NCBI RefSeq assembly: GCF_000772965.1
Contig: NZ_JPVQ01000038.1
Location: 1-32,360 of the forward strand
Length of the DNA stretch: 32,360 nucleotides
DNA from: Ureibacillus massiliensis 4400831 = CIP 108448 = CCUG 49529
GTDB lineage: Bacteria; Bacillota; Bacilli; Bacillales_A; Planococcaceae
Direction of reading: 5' to 3'
Of this stretch, positions 742 through 6,618 are shown one piece after another. The notes under the pieces are model-generated. The model saw only the letters and a program-made list of their open reading frames with translations. It ran no database searches and was not told where the DNA came from. The stretch's first letter is position 1. Each line of letters starts with the position of its first letter. The position numbers and the translations under genes are program-made.

Positions 742-1245
742 GTGTTAAAGCCTAGGTGGGATAATGTTATATCAGAATACGTTATGCAAAACAAAGAAAA
801 TTTTTATCGACTAGCCTATAGTTATGTACAAAACGCTGATGATGCGCTTGATATCGTGCAGGATTCTATTCAAAAAGCAATTTCAGCAAATACACTAAAA
901 GATCGAAAAGCAATTAAAAGCTGGTTTTATAAAATTGTCGTTAATACATCATTGGATTTTTTACGACGAAGAAAAAAAGTCCAAGTAGTGGATGAAACAA
1001 CAATTGAACAACATTCACCAGGCCAAATTGATCACTATGTAAATATCGATTTACAGCAGGCATTAAATGAATTACCACCTGATTATCGAAGTGTAATCGT
1101 CCTTCGATATCTTGAGGACTTAAAAATTGAGGAAGTAGCTGAAATTTTAGATTTGAACATTAATACGACTAAAACTCGGATTTACAAAGGTTTAAAAGTG
1201 CTGCGTGTTCAAATGGAGGATTTTAATTTTGAGGAGGCAAAATAG
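742..1245 (+). CDS. sigV: ECF RNA polymerase sigma factor, SigV-like
   Basis: This 167-residue protein is a two-domain ECF sigma factor. Region 2 spans about residues 15-85, with FYRLAYSYVQNADDALDIVQDS typical of the core-binding and -10 recognition helices. Region 4 spans about 105-160, with the helix-turn-helix LPPDYRSVIVLRYLEDLKIEEVAEIL recognising -35 elements. Translation starts at GTG 742, 8-9 nt after AAGGAGA; the nearby ATG at 740 meets a stop at once. The next gene encodes an RsiV-type anti-sigma factor beginning 2 nt after this stop, which is why I assign SigV. In Bacillus subtilis SigV answers lysozyme and turns on peptidoglycan O-acetylation; the usual partner oatA is not downstream here. 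The gene symbol rests on the pair and on resemblance. Confidence 0.85.
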   Translation: MLKPRWDNVISEYVMQNKENFYRLAYSYVQNADDALDIVQDSIQKAISANTLKDRKAIKSWFYKIVVNTSLDFLRRRKKVQVVDETTIEQHSPGQIDHYVNIDLQQALNELPPDYRSVIVLRYLEDLKIEEVAEILDLNINTTKTRIYKGLKVLRVQMEDFNFEEAK

Positions 1246-1246
1246 T

Positions 1247-2134
1247 ATGGATCATAAAAATATGGAGAAAAACAAAATGGAAAGATTAAAAGAAGAATAT
1301 AAAAATATACCTATTCCTTCGGAGCTTGATAAGGTTGTGCAAAATGCCTTAATGCAGAAAAAGCCAAAAAGAAAAAGTTTAGGATGGGTTGCCGGAGTTG
1401 CAGCAGCTGCTGTAATTTTTACAACAAGTTTAAATTTAAGCCCTGCATTTGCTCAATCTTTAAAGGATATACCTGTGGTTGGGAGCATTGTTAATGTATT
1501 AACAATTCAGGATTACAGTATTGATGAAGGTAATTATGAAGCAAATATTAAAGTACCAGCAATCGAAAATTTAGAAAATGAATCGTTAGAACAGAGCTTG
1601 AATAATAAATATCTAGAGGAAAGTCAAAAGCTTTATGAAACGTTTATGAATGAAATGGAAACACAAAAGGCATTTGGTGAAGATGGACATCTAAAAGTTG
1701 ATAGTGGGTATATCATTAAAACGGAAACAGATCAACTGTTATCAATTGGTCGTTACGTTGAAGAAACAGTAGCGTCCTCTATGACAACAATTCAATACGA
1801 TACAATTGATAAAAAGAATGAACTACTAGTAACATTACCAAGTTTATTTAAGGATAATAGCTATGTAGATGTGATTAGTACAAATATTAAAGAACAGATG
1901 AACAAACAAATGGAGGATGATTCCTCAATAACATATTTTATTGAATCACCAGATGATCCAGATGGTTTTAAGGAAATTTCATTGAATCAAAACTTCTACA
2001 TTAATTCAAATAACGAATTAGTAATTGCGTTTAATGAATATGATGTGGCACCTGGTTACATGGGTCCAGTTGAATTTATAATACCTACTAAAGTATTGCA
2101 AGAAATTCTTGTTAGTAACGAGTACTTAAAATAA
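1247..2134 (+). CDS. rsiV: Membrane anti-sigma factor, RsiV-like (DUF3298)
   Basis: This 295-residue protein is a single-pass anti-sigma factor. Residues 1-43 form a short cytoplasmic segment (LKEEYKNIPIPSELDKVVQNAL), residues 44-64 a hydrophobic helix, and the rest an extracellular domain with the DUF3298 pattern near the C-terminus. Right after the helix is PAFAQS, a signal-peptidase-like AxA site; in B. subtilis RsiV, lysozyme binding exposes such a site to signal peptidase and starts release of SigV. I chose ATG 1247 because GAGGAGG lies 8 nt upstream; the frame is open further up but only inside the sigma gene. The gene is translationally close to sigV (1-nt gap) and both are likely transcribed from the ECF promoter upstream. 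Whether it senses lysozyme here is inference from the family. Confidence 0.85.
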   Translation: MDHKNMEKNKMERLKEEYKNIPIPSELDKVVQNALMQKKPKRKSLGWVAGVAAAAVIFTTSLNLSPAFAQSLKDIPVVGSIVNVLTIQDYSIDEGNYEANIKVPAIENLENESLEQSLNNKYLEESQKLYETFMNEMETQKAFGEDGHLKVDSGYIIKTETDQLLSIGRYVEETVASSMTTIQYDTIDKKNELLVTLPSLFKDNSYVDVISTNIKEQMNKQMEDDSSITYFIESPDDPDGFKEISLNQNFYINSNNELVIAFNEYDVAPGYMGPVEFIIPTKVLQEILVSNEYLK

Positions 2135-2192
2135 AGGAATTTAGTAGATGAGGTTAAAGTCGAATTAAATACTTCGATCGTTCAATTTTTCC

Positions 2193-2236
2193 TAGAGCTC
2201 GGCATTGTTTACAGTGTCCGAGCTCTAATTAATTTT
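2193..2236 (+). terminator. Terminator-like hairpin after rsiV
   Basis: A 10-bp perfect inverted repeat, TAGAGCTCGG and CCGAGCTCTA, encloses a 15-nt loop and is followed by an AT-rich stretch with TTTTT. It closes the sigV-rsiV unit. Confidence 0.65.
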
Positions 2237-2246
2237 TCATGGTTTG

Positions 2247-2280
2247 CCCCTATTATTAGGAGAACAGGGGTTTTTAGTTT
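2247..2280 (+). terminator. Second short terminator-like hairpin
   Basis: CCCCT and AGGGG arms with a 14-nt loop run into TTTTTAGTTTT. It is weaker than the hairpin just upstream and may be a backup terminator between the sigma unit and the repeat array. Confidence 0.45.
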
Positions 2281-2314
2281 TAAAGTGAATTGTGGATGGA
2301 ATTTCCAGATCTTT

Positions 2315-3873
2315 AGTGGCATTTTTATTTAAAAGTGCCTGAATACAAGGGGATTTTAAGGGGATAGGGAACTTTCGCAATGAAAAGTGCACAAACGGAA
2401 TGCGATTTTCAAGAATAGGGTAACTTTCGCAATGAAAAGTGCCCAAATGCAATGGAATTCTCAAGGAAAAGGGAACTTTCGCAATGAAAAGTGCCCAAAT
2501 ACAATGAAGTTTTCAGTAAAAAGGGAACTTTCGCAATGGAAAGTGCCCAAACGCAATGCGATTTTCAAGGAAAAGGGAACTTTCGCAATGGAAAGTGCCC
2601 AAAAGCAATGAGATTTTCAAGGAAAAGGGAACTTTCACAAATAAAAGTGCCCAAACGGAATGCGACTCTCAAGAAAAAGTGAACTTTTGCAATAAAAAGT
2701 GCCCAAAAGCAATGGAATTCTCAAGGAAAAGGGAACTTTCACAAATAAAAGTGCCCAAACGGAATGCGACTCTCAAGAAAAAGGGAACTTTTGCAATAAA
2801 AAGTGCCCAAATGCAATGGAATTCTCAAGGAAAAGGGAACTTTCACAAATAAAAGTGCCCAAACGGAATGCGGTATTCAAGGAAAAGGGAACTTTCACAA
2901 TGAAAAGTGCCCAAACGCAATGCGATTTTCAAGGAAAAGGGAACTTTCACAAATAAAAGTGCCCAAATACAATGAAGTTTTCAGTAAAAAGATAACTTTC
3001 ACAATGAAAAATGCCCAAACGCAATGCAATTATCAATAAAAAGGCAACTTTCGCAATGAAAAGTGCCCAAATGCATGGAATTTTCAAGGAAAAGGGAACT
3101 TTCGCAAATAAAAGTGCCCAAACGCCATGCGATTTTCAAGGAAAAGGGAACTTTCGCAAATAAAAGTGCCCAAATATAATGAAGTTTTCAGTAAAAAGGG
3201 AACTTTCACAAATAAAAGTGCCCAAATGCAATGAAGTTTTCAGTAAAAAGGGAACTTTCACAATGAAAAGTGCCCAAAAGCAATGTGATTTTCAAGGAAA
3301 AGGGAACTTTCGCAATAAAAAGTGCCCAAATACAATGAAGTTTTCAGTAAAAAGGGAACTTTCGCAATGAAAAGTGCCCAAATGCAATGCGATTTTCAAG
3401 GAAAAGGGAACTTTCACAATAAAAAGTGCCCAAATGTAATGGAATTTTCAAGGAAACGGGAACTTTCGCAATGAAAAGTACCCAAATACATTGAAGTTTT
3501 CAGTAAAAAGGGAACTTTCGCAATGAAAAGTGCCCAAACGCAATGGAATTCTCAAGGAAAAGGGAACTTTCACAAATAAAAGTGCCCAAATACAATGGAA
3601 TTTTCAAGGAAAAGGGAACTTTCACAAATAAAAGTGCCCAAACGGAATGCGACTCTCAAGAAAAAGGGAACTTTCACAATAAAAAATGCCCAAATACAAT
3701 GGAATTTTCAAGGAAAAGGGAACTTTCACAAATAAAAGTGCCCAAACGCAATGCGATTTTCAAGGAAAAGGGAACTTTCACAATAAAAAATGCCCAAACG
3801 CAATGGAATTCTCAAGAAAAAGGGAACTTTCACAAATAAAAGTGCCCAAACGCAATGCAATTATCAATAAAAA
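2315..3873. repeat. Tandem array of 52-bp repeats (29 kept units plus one decayed)
   Basis: From 2367 to 3873 the sequence is made of 29 head-to-tail units, all 52 bp long except one of 51 bp (3043-3093). A strongly diverged unit of exactly 52 bp precedes them at 2315-2366, and a decayed fragment follows at about 3874-3900. Each unit begins GGGAACTTT (unit 1-9) and has AAAGTGCCC at 18-26, an inverted repeat with one mismatch and an 8-nt loop. The second half holds AAAcgcAATG-like sequence and one of five tail types (for example GATTTTCAAGGAAAA or AGTTTTCAGTAAAAA). Units vary mainly in the loop and tail and often by C/T or A/G transitions. Since 52 is not a multiple of 3, every frame is open for only short runs; I see no credible protein. 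There are no unique spacers, so it is not CRISPR. Function unknown. Confidence 0.95.
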
Positions 3874-4220
3874 GTTCCCCACAATAAAGAAAAAATCCAT
3901 CACTTACGTACTTTCACAGCTCAACTAAGATCTTTTCAGCCTCAATCACCCGGTCACCCTCCCCCATAAACAGTATCCAATAAACCAAAAAATCAATTTT
4001 AACTATAAAAACCACATTTCATTACATCTATCGATAGTAGAAAGCCCCCTGTTTTACATTCATCTTTCGAAATATTAGCAAAATTATAATTATCACCCTC
4101 CCTCCTAAAATACGTAAAAACCCAATAACACCAATGTTTTTGTAATATTCTGTCTACGTTTTTTTCTGCTTTACGTTACGAAAAAGCTAAAATAATTAAA
4201 TTTTTTTTAAAAGAAAGGGT
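3874..4220. other. Intergenic DNA between repeat array and alcohol dehydrogenase operon
   Basis: The first 25-30 bases resemble a worn repeat unit (ACAATAAAGAAAAAATCC). The rest is C/A-rich then T-rich with no open frame carrying a ribosome-binding site on either strand. No further element is recognised until the promoter at 4221. Confidence 0.5.
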
Positions 4221-4249
4221 TTTCAACTTACAGAATATTATGCTATTAT
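4221..4249 (+). promoter_or_regulatory. Sigma-A promoter of the adh-TRAP operon, extended -10
   Basis: TTTCAA at 4221-4226 is a 4-of-6 match to TTGACA, followed by a 17-nt spacer and TATTAT at 4244-4249. TGC directly before TATTAT gives an extended -10. Predicted transcription start is near 4256, at the edge of the operator. Confidence 0.6.
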
Positions 4250-4256
4250 GTTCTCA

Positions 4257-4294
4257 AGTTTAATATAATAAAACTGGTTTAATATATTAAACCA
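4257..4294 (+). promoter_or_regulatory. Double palindromic operator, probably for the operon's IclR regulator
   Basis: TGGTTTAATATATTAAACCA at 4275-4294 is a perfect 20-bp palindrome. Just before it, 4257-4275 is an imperfect 19-nt palindrome with 7 of 9 pairs; both contain GTTTAATATA, 19 bp apart. They sit immediately downstream of the -10, where a bound repressor would block initiation or early elongation. The only regulator in this operon is the IclR-family gene at 8474, so I assign it as the likely ligand by context. The core TTAATATATTAA recurs at 7134-7145 over the dctQ stop codon, possibly by chance. Confidence 0.6.
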
Positions 4295-4321
4295 AAATCA
4301 TCACGACAGAGGGGGGATTCC

Positions 4322-5479
4322 ATGTATAACTACTACATGCCAACTAGAATTATCTTTGAAAACAATAGTTCTGGTAAATTGGGAGAAATATTAGAAAAAG
4401 AAAATAAAAAAAATGTTTTAGTCGTCACAGATAAAGGGGTTTTAAACGCTGGACTATTAAATGCAATGTTCCAATCATTCGATAACAGTAATATCTCATA
4501 TGGGATTTTTGATGAAGTGGAACCGAATCCAAAATCATCCACTATTAGAAAAGGGGTTCAAAAGCTTTCTGAAAGTAACTTTGACGCAATTGTAGGATTT
4601 GGAGGGGGAAGCTCCATTGATACAGCAAAAGCAATTGCAGTTATGGCAACAAATGAAGGGGAAATTTTAGACTATGAAGGTGTAGGAAACGTCATTAACG
4701 ACTCGCTATTCTTGGTAGCGGTTCCAACAACAGCCGGAACAGGTAGTGAAGTTACAGCATCCACGATTATTACGGATGAAAATACTTTATTTAAAGCGGC
4801 AATTATAAGTCCTAAAGTATTTCCGAATTTAGCAATTTTAGATGCAACATTAACATTAGGGTGTCCACCAGGGATTACTTCTTCAACAGGGATTGACGCA
4901 TTAACACATGCAATTGAGTCTTACATATCAAAACAAAGTAATCCTATTAGTGGAAGTATTGCCCTACATGCTATTAGCTTAATATCTAAGAATATTCATA
5001 AGGCTTACTATTATGGAACTGACTTAGAGAGTCGAGAAAAAATGTTAGAGGCTTCCATGTTAGCAGGTCTAGCATTTTCTCAAACGAGATTAGGAAATGT
5101 TCATGCAATCTCACAGGCTTTAGGTGGGGTCTTTGATATTCCACACGGGATAGCAAATGCAGCACTTTTACCATATGTTCTAAAATTTAACGCACCAGCT
5201 TGTTTAAAAGAAATGGTCGACATTGCAAATGCAATGGGTATTCAAACTGAAAATGAAAGCGATGTCATTATTGCTGAGAAGGTTGTGAATACAATTGTTG
5301 AATGGAATCACTCCTTTGATATACCAAATAATACAAAGGATTTAGGCGTTGATTTATCTGAGATTGATAAATTAATAGCTGATTCAATGAGAAGTGGAAA
5401 TATATTAGTAAATCCACGTCTTACAACTTCTAAAGATGTAGAAAAATTGATCAGAGATTCTTATGATGGGGTACTTTAA
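4322..5479 (+). CDS. Iron-containing (group III) alcohol dehydrogenase
   Basis: This 385-residue protein is a full-length metal-dependent NAD(P)-linked alcohol dehydrogenase of the FucO/1,3-propanediol dehydrogenase type. The nucleotide site shows GFGGGSSIDTAKA at about 92-104 and PTTAGTGSEVT at 135-145. The four metal ligands are visible as Asp192 and His196 (DALTHAIESY), His261 (GNVHAISQ) and His275 (DIPHGIANA). ATG 4322 follows a strong AGGGGGG site. It is the first gene of a seven-gene operon with a TRAP transporter and an aldehyde dehydrogenase, so it probably oxidises an imported hydroxy compound to an aldehyde or ketone, or reduces the reverse. The substrate cannot be read from sequence. 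Confidence 0.9.
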   Translation: MYNYYMPTRIIFENNSSGKLGEILEKENKKNVLVVTDKGVLNAGLLNAMFQSFDNSNISYGIFDEVEPNPKSSTIRKGVQKLSESNFDAIVGFGGGSSIDTAKAIAVMATNEGEILDYEGVGNVINDSLFLVAVPTTAGTGSEVTASTIITDENTLFKAAIISPKVFPNLAILDATLTLGCPPGITSSTGIDALTHAIESYISKQSNPISGSIALHAISLISKNIHKAYYYGTDLESREKMLEASMLAGLAFSQTRLGNVHAISQALGGVFDIPHGIANAALLPYVLKFNAPACLKEMVDIANAMGIQTENESDVIIAEKVVNTIVEWNHSFDIPNNTKDLGVDLSEIDKLIADSMRSGNILVNPRLTTSKDVEKLIRDSYDGVL

Positions 5480-6578: not shown

Positions 6579-6618
6579 AAAACAATAAAGAAGAAAGTAT
6601 TTTCTTCTTTATTGTTTT
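6579..6618 (+). promoter_or_regulatory. Perfect 18-bp intra-operon hairpin between dctP and dctQ
   Basis: AACAATAAAGAAGAAA and its exact complement form an 18-bp stem (6579-6596 and 6601-6618) around a GTAT loop, ending in TTTTA. The T-rich right arm could act as a leaky terminator, or the stem could protect the dctP message from 3' decay. Either would give more receptor than membrane subunits, a common arrangement for binding-protein transporters. Confidence 0.7.

Follow-up and report, generated by a model that had tools for sequence, protein, structure and literature searches.

A 52-bp palindromic repeat array of Ureibacillus massiliensis belongs to a lineage-restricted, multi-copy DNA satellite

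The window analyzed here, a stretch of 32,360 nucleotides from Ureibacillus massiliensis (genome G000), carries on its forward strand a gene for an ECF-type sigma factor (742..1245; Pfam Sigma70_r2 and Sigma70_r4_2), a gene for an RsiV-like anti-sigma factor with DUF3298 and DUF4179 domains (1247..2134), a tandem array of 52-bp repeats, and the gene for an iron-containing alcohol dehydrogenase (4322..5479; Pfam Fe-ADH) that starts a catabolic/TRAP operon. The array lies after the 3' end of the RsiV-like gene and is co-oriented with it, and a gene for a TRAP DctP binding protein is also found downstream. An earlier note, made from the sequence alone, had placed the array behind sigV-rsiV and before a catabolic operon, and the Pfam domains (Sigma70 and DUF3298/DUF4179; Fe-ADH and TRAP DctP) support both flanks. 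Ahead of the sigma factor gene, a short fragment (287-421) matches the beginning of a staphylococcal-nuclease-like (SNase) domain (Pfam E 3e-8) and is apparently a degraded gene. A 40-bp inverted repeat (6579-6618; 95% self-complementary) separates the TRAP binding protein gene from the next gene and is also present in the orthologous stretch L035. Sigma-70-like promoters are matched twelve times between 2100 and 4330, where 5.4 matches would be expected; eight of these (six on the + strand, two on the - strand) fall within the array region or overlap it. The motif GGAAC in the repeats resembles the -35 element of ECF promoters, but no -10 element was seen and an ECF promoter reading was rejected.

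Tandem Repeats Finder delimits the array at 2366..3874 (+ strand), with a period of 52, 29.0 copies, 83% matches and 0% indels. Parsing unit by unit places 29 cores from 2368 to 3823, with 27 spacings of 52 bp and a single one of 51 bp (unit 14, 3044-3094, + strand), the exact copy number being uncertain in this 156-contig draft assembly. A unit is made up of an imperfect palindrome (26 or 27 bp) plus a linker (26 or 25 bp). For the window's class, the core sequence is GGGAACTTT-N8-AAAGTGCCC, with conserved flanks AAAAG and RAA; unit 3 (2471..2496, + strand), with half-sites GGGAAC and GTGCCC, is representative of its 26-bp palindrome. A decayed outermost unit (2315..2366, + strand) precedes the array: its right half-site, AAAGTGCC at 2332-2339, lies exactly 52 bp ahead of the equivalent in unit 1 (2384), its left arm is two bases out of register, and the same sequence stands at the left end of the orthologous array. 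The right end, AAAAAGTTCCCC (3869..3880, + strand), is identical in L035, and the array closes with AAAGTTCCC, an inverted half-site (the opposite arm form) at the expected start of unit 30. This confirms what the earlier note had counted, 29 units (one of them of 51 bp) plus a decayed unit. Its statements that the array has no unique spacers and no credible frame also hold, as linkers recur within arrays, 52 is not a multiple of 3, and the ORFs inside the arrays merely follow the repeat, so that a coding reading was rejected.

The window array is not unique. Two more arrays of the same genome lie on contig C146, one of which (L031) has the same core in 9-10 units, and G013, a genus member with a one-contig genome, has ten array loci with about 260 units (255 plus a block of 4). 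When searched with one mismatch allowed, the exact core matched in 12 of 261 family genomes, with more than two matches only in G000 (36) and G013 (190 and 36 by strand), and the tandem form of the inner core was found in 2 of the 261. A looser pattern of the outer half-sites matched 16 of the 261 genomes, a dozen or more times in G000, G013, G006 and G011, all of one genus, and once or twice in the others; a single core match in G141 (L049) is regarded as chance. This stretch is 100% identical over 3025 bp to a record of Lysinibacillus sphaericus (L077), so that the family searched, Planococcaceae, includes Lysinibacillus. Among seven stretches of G006 and G011 that were inspected, six carry 52-bp arrays of other palindrome classes, and the seventh (L213, a contig end) has no 52-bp array. 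Such arrays are therefore present in at least 4 of 25 genus members, a count that would miss classes outside the search patterns, also in G013. A covariance model, applied to 150 candidates in each genome, recovered G000 and G013 alone among the 25 and missed G006 and G011. Relatives of the unit, for which the earlier note had proposed a search, exist in the same genome and in genus members; with the patterns used, arrays were seen in few genomes.

Plasmid and phage collections gave no match to the window array, and viral contigs none to the core; the tandem form matched eight viral stretches with one pair each, taken as chance. A scan of genome_contigs returned 26 stretches with one match each and no arrays, although near relatives may be absent from such scans. 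In Rfam, no array in 10 sources matched at the gathering threshold, and three sub-threshold matches are taken as chance. We found no description of such arrays in the open-licence literature, and the main text of a REP survey (PMC12306157) does not contain the word 'tandem'. We regard the array as one member locus of a multi-copy DNA satellite restricted to this lineage.

The satellite comprises several palindrome classes. L150 and L151 in G013 have arms GGTCACTTT and AAAGTKCCC, and L175 in G000, at the locus orthologous to L036 of G013, is a different array of eight 104-bp dimers (sixteen 52-bp units) with arms GGKAACAT and ATGTKCCC. G006 and G011 contain classes with arms GGTAACATAG/CTATGTGCCC and GGTAACAGAG/CTCAGTGCCC, and two further classes, TGTCTCGTAG/CTATGGGACA and TGTCCATT/AATGGACA, occur in G006 only (L208 and L210). 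The palindrome measures 26 bp in the CTTT classes and 27 bp in the others with a period of 52 in both, so palindrome and linker lengths shift in opposite directions. In L208 (2515-3780) two array classes stand back to back, the first having the inner palindrome sequence of the L214 class with switched outer half-sites, and higher-order repeats of three and two units are seen in L151 (700-2400) and L037 (2972-3851), respectively. Elsewhere, a permease-like gene ahead of an array is itself preceded by a glycine riboswitch (L209:1044-1119), and an ORF with a reverse transcriptase domain (L033:71-682) lies upstream of an Hsp20 gene and an array.

The arrays show rapid gain, loss and turnover. Between the window and its orthologous locus in G013 (L035), the flanks are 95% identical upstream and 99% downstream, and the first and the last unit of the array are identical; the left third is largely common and the rest is reshuffled, with 29 units counted in the window and 36 in L035. 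Nine of the ten G013 loci were compared in G000. Arrays of the same class stand at two of them (the window and L031), remnants at two (about 1.5 units in L040, about three degenerate units in L039), an array of another class at one (L175) and no array at four (L173, L174, L176, L177), which indicates that an array is not needed at those four places. The earlier note had seen no flanking transposase; this is correct for the window but does not extend to G013, where two arrays are split by insertion sequences (IS21 in L032, an IS3-type element in L037). NERD-domain genes follow arrays at non-orthologous places in G013 (L032:7470-8384) and G000 (L175:1456-2361) and are 82% identical over 972 bp, and array and NERD-domain gene may travel together.

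Within the window's class, conservation is very uneven. Mean pairwise identity among 11 array consensuses (one of them from a single unit, and two, the window and L035, orthologous) is highest in the core (0.989), followed by the linker (0.598) and the loop (0.352), and 221 units have 70 distinct loops, 9 further units with more than four core mismatches being left out of this count. The earlier judgement that the array is too conserved for idle drift is thus upheld for the core, at 98.9% against 60% for the linker and 35% for the loop. Lengths are kept as well: the loop is 8 nt long in 270 of 277 units, and 237 of 249 gaps between one core and the following one measure 34, as counted in 13 array blocks (GGTCAC variants included) from units with an intact inner core, damaged units excluded. 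Over all palindrome classes in the four genomes, spacings below 70 bp are exactly 52 in 347 of 367 cases, 51 in 16 and 53 in 4, some units of L212 being counted twice where two patterns overlap. Substitutions outnumber indels 1205:40 in 205 array units and 101:32 in six intergenic flanks compared between G000 and G013 (Fisher p 1e-15), a contrast that sets paralogous units against orthologous flanks and that may be inflated on the flank side, where the ends were picked by eye.

The symmetry of the palindromes was assessed in 21 hand-chosen examples, one to two per array, with 10-base arms and with L152 and L035 left out; right arms were permuted among arrays, a procedure that ignores kinship by descent. 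At inner arm positions 7-10, 69 of 84 cells are paired (shuffled mean 45.6; 0 of 20000 shuffles reach 69), and at outer positions 1-6, 100 of 126 (shuffled mean 90.6; 187 of 20000). When only the 11 distinct arm pairs are considered, 84 of 99 are paired against 64.4 in shuffles (0 of 20000). Pairing at positions 3-4 is at chance (17 of 42 against 16.7), yet left position 3 is K (G or T) and left position 4 is M (A or C) in 213 of 214 units each, and their right-arm counterparts fit in 210 of 214 in either case, counts to which a single form (GGGAAC, GTGCCC) contributes most. Of the 21 palindromes, 18 have two half-sites that fit GGKMAC; the L034 example has one half-site off by its first base, and the two TGTC classes differ. 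As positions 3-4 are restricted with pairing at chance, the outer half-site seems to be read as sequence, whereas the inner arm appears to keep its symmetry while its sequence changes. Inside the window's class the core is almost invariant, and covariation is accordingly absent. Matched arms could also arise without selection, through quasi-palindrome correction during replication.

Half-site centers lie 20-21 bp apart within a palindrome and 31-32 bp between neighbors. With a helical turn of 10.4 bp these distances amount to about two and about three turns, so that all half-sites would face one side of the helix. The period is likewise near a whole number of turns and is kept independently of sequence, to which descent from a common ancestor may contribute. 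AA/TT steps at 10.4 bp take first or second rank among harmonics 1-12 in each of ten arrays. At the 0.05 level, however, the phasing of the consensuses exceeds shuffles in no more than 5 of the ten, and the AA/TT sum stays the same when loop and linker are shuffled around a fixed core (73.6 against 73.9), which assigns the signal to the conserved core. As loop and linker contribute nothing, intrinsic curvature was rejected. The earlier proposal that the array may bind a protein or shape DNA is favored, as far as sequence can indicate, by the conserved spacing and by the distances between half-sites, about two or three turns; phased A/T tracts occur in the conserved core only.

The orientation of the arrays was assessed in G013, whose sequence starts at dnaA and in which samples from 0 to 1.8 Mb show a positive GC skew (9 of 10) and those from 1.9 to 3.8 Mb a negative one (10 of 10). 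In the window's class, the unit strand is + at the seven loci between 0.85 and 1.54 Mb and - at the remaining locus at 2.92 Mb, so that 8 of 8 are in leading-strand orientation (two-sided sign test, 0.008). The two GGTCAC arrays (1.06 and 2.96 Mb) follow this orientation only by their A-rich flanks and are opposite by best core match. In the ORF lists, all ten G013 arrays follow a gene in their own direction (for L151 this gene was inferred from the orthologous G000 stretch L039), and the gene on the far side of the array runs the same way in four loci and is convergent in the other six. In G013, the direction of replication is consequently confounded with that of transcription, and the gene-direction rule is not absolute, as L208 of G006 sits between divergent genes.

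Our preferred, though tentative, explanation, held with somewhat less than even confidence, is that the array provides phased sites for a putative DNA-binding protein, similar in logic to REP/BIME elements. A sequence-specific protein, probably a dimer, would occupy each palindrome through its two inverted half-sites (GGKMAC in most classes). The 52 bp would correspond to five helical turns, which would explain why the unit length is held, and bound dimers would align on one face of the DNA to form a regular, polar nucleoprotein array. It might serve to structure the chromosome or to insulate at the ends of genes, similar to what is proposed for the BIMEs of E. coli, which are named as candidate barriers of supercoil domains (PMC6907758). 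We infer the protein, its dimeric state, its binding to double-stranded DNA and its role; that double-stranded DNA is occupied in register is suggested by conserved half-sites, by a spacing conserved free of sequence and by the whole number of turns. Against phasing, 20 of 367 spacings are 51 or 53 bp, so that units of these lengths are tolerated, and if all classes descend from one 52-bp ancestor, the fixed period would partly be inheritance. The covarying hairpin arms and the replication orientation are explained as well or better by a single-stranded mechanism.

Such a single-stranded process is the strongest rival, somewhat unlikely in our estimate, and accounts better than phased protein sites for hairpins, turnover and orientation, but not for length conservation. 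The palindrome would fold on the lagging-strand template and an HUH enzyme (TnpA-REP/IS200-like) or slippage would copy units head to tail, giving a selfishly spreading satellite that may do nothing for its host. Processes of this kind, acting on single-stranded hairpins of the lagging strand, are described for IS200/IS605 and REP (PMC6006769, PMC8266576), and at all eight G013 loci of the window's class the strand that bears the unit serves as lagging-strand template. Folded units form hairpins whose conserved internal mismatch (A.G) is reminiscent of the AA-GC mismatch or bulge that the TnpA of E. coli REP requires (PMC8266576), a resemblance and not proof. The concerted arm changes between classes, the fast turnover, the dimer and trimer higher-order repeats and the sites found empty or collapsed in sister species also fit. 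On the other hand, a hairpin does not need fixed loop and linker lengths, and the hairpins are of modest stability: ten folds of five units gave -7.3 to -12.8 kcal/mol with z from -0.9 to -4.6, and the unit of the window itself folds most weakly. There is no GTAG or CGTC tag, there are no inverted BIME pairs, no Y1 transposase is present among 18 proteins searched in Pfam, and the two GGTCAC arrays obey the orientation rule only by their flanks. A passive minisatellite, generated by hairpin-promoted slippage and unequal recombination with neither sequence-specific recognition nor function, would agree with copy number and interior differing between sister species whose array ends are common, and with arrays in only 4 of 25 genus members by the patterns used. 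We nevertheless consider it improbable: the core is 99% identical between separate loci against 35% for the loop, and positions free of any need for pairing are restricted, both of which argue that the sequence is read by something.

The earlier note had also raised a template for a processed RNA, which we keep as a doubtful alternative: the array would be transcribed into a long RNA in which every unit forms a hairpin and which works as a sponge, as a stabilizer or as terminators in antisense direction. The position of 10 of 10 G013 arrays downstream of a co-directional gene is consistent with transcription, and in the window's class the reverse strand reads as a hairpin followed by TTTT, so that weak antisense terminators are conceivable. 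However, a terminator scan of 2100-4330 found 0 against 2.6 expected (the scan disallows a stem mismatch), no T run follows the hairpin in the L208 (first array) and L210 classes, the window's class lacks covariation, and there is no match to an Rfam family. Loop and linker lengths as constant as these would be unexpected in an RNA hairpin array, where the linker should be free to vary. Finally, an assembly artefact, conceivable for a window from a 156-contig draft and considered in the earlier note, is refuted as regards the existence of the array, since the one-contig genome G013 has an array with a diverged interior at the same locus; we give it almost no credence.

Beyond the phased protein sites themselves, the family might be a bacterial counterpart of satellite DNA: dispersed polar arrays in which geometry is conserved over sequence and a lineage-specific binding protein co-evolves with its site. 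Its geometry would be the five-turn period with inverted half-sites two and three turns apart, its arms would switch in concert, and one locus may hold different classes in sister species; taken jointly, we rate these propositions as rather unlikely. If phased protein sites are the correct reading, a bacterium has hundreds of evenly phased binding sites in kilobase arrays that are gained and lost between sister species, and the arrays would offer a clean natural system in which to study the effect of repeat arrays on the shape of a bacterial chromosome and the co-evolution of a satellite with its binding protein. If the hairpin process holds instead, the family would be a tandem-forming relative, in spirit, of REP with a length ruler, for which we also found no description in the open-licence literature.

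When compared with known systems, the arrays represent a variant kind of palindromic intergenic repeat, lacking a defining feature of each of REP, BIME and CRISPR. REPs are described as intergenic imperfect palindromes of 20-50 nt in many, clustered copies, with a conserved stem mismatch in E. coli (PMC8266576, PMC6907758), and GTAG- and CGTC-tagged repeats, some of them in tandem, are also described (PMC3733652). With palindromes of 26-27 bp between genes and about 260 units in G013, the arrays fall within these dimensions, but the GTAG/CGTC tag is absent beside palindromes flanked by AAAAG and RAA in the window's class, and the REP-associated Y1 transposase (TnpA-REP/RAYT) is not among the 18 proteins searched. 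BIMEs combine REPs in alternating orientation or inverted pairs, whereas the units here run head to tail in one orientation, and fixed loop and linker lengths within a fixed 52-bp period also set them apart from both. CRISPR arrays share the regular repeats, with a palindrome and a spacer-sized interval; here linkers are repeated within an array instead of being unique, for which a CRISPR reading was rejected, and no cas genes occur among the 18 proteins searched in Pfam, most flanking ORFs being unannotated. With regard to arrays of intrinsic terminators, which have a GC-rich hairpin followed by a T run, the reverse strand of the window's class reads a hairpin and then TTTT, whereas two other classes lack the T run. 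Bacterial MIRU/VNTR minisatellites are intergenic tandem repeats of about 50 bp whose number varies between strains; in contrast to these, core and geometry of the arrays are conserved between loci while the rest drifts, and the arms covary. In the hr regions of baculoviruses, dispersed tandem arrays have each repeat centered on an imperfect palindrome bound by a dimeric protein, which would make them an analogy only, being viral and of other sequence and period. Eukaryotic satellite DNA shows concerted evolution, dimer and trimer higher-order units, locus replacement and a short conserved box in a drifting monomer, and differs from the arrays described here in that these are bacterial, intergenic and of kilobase scale.
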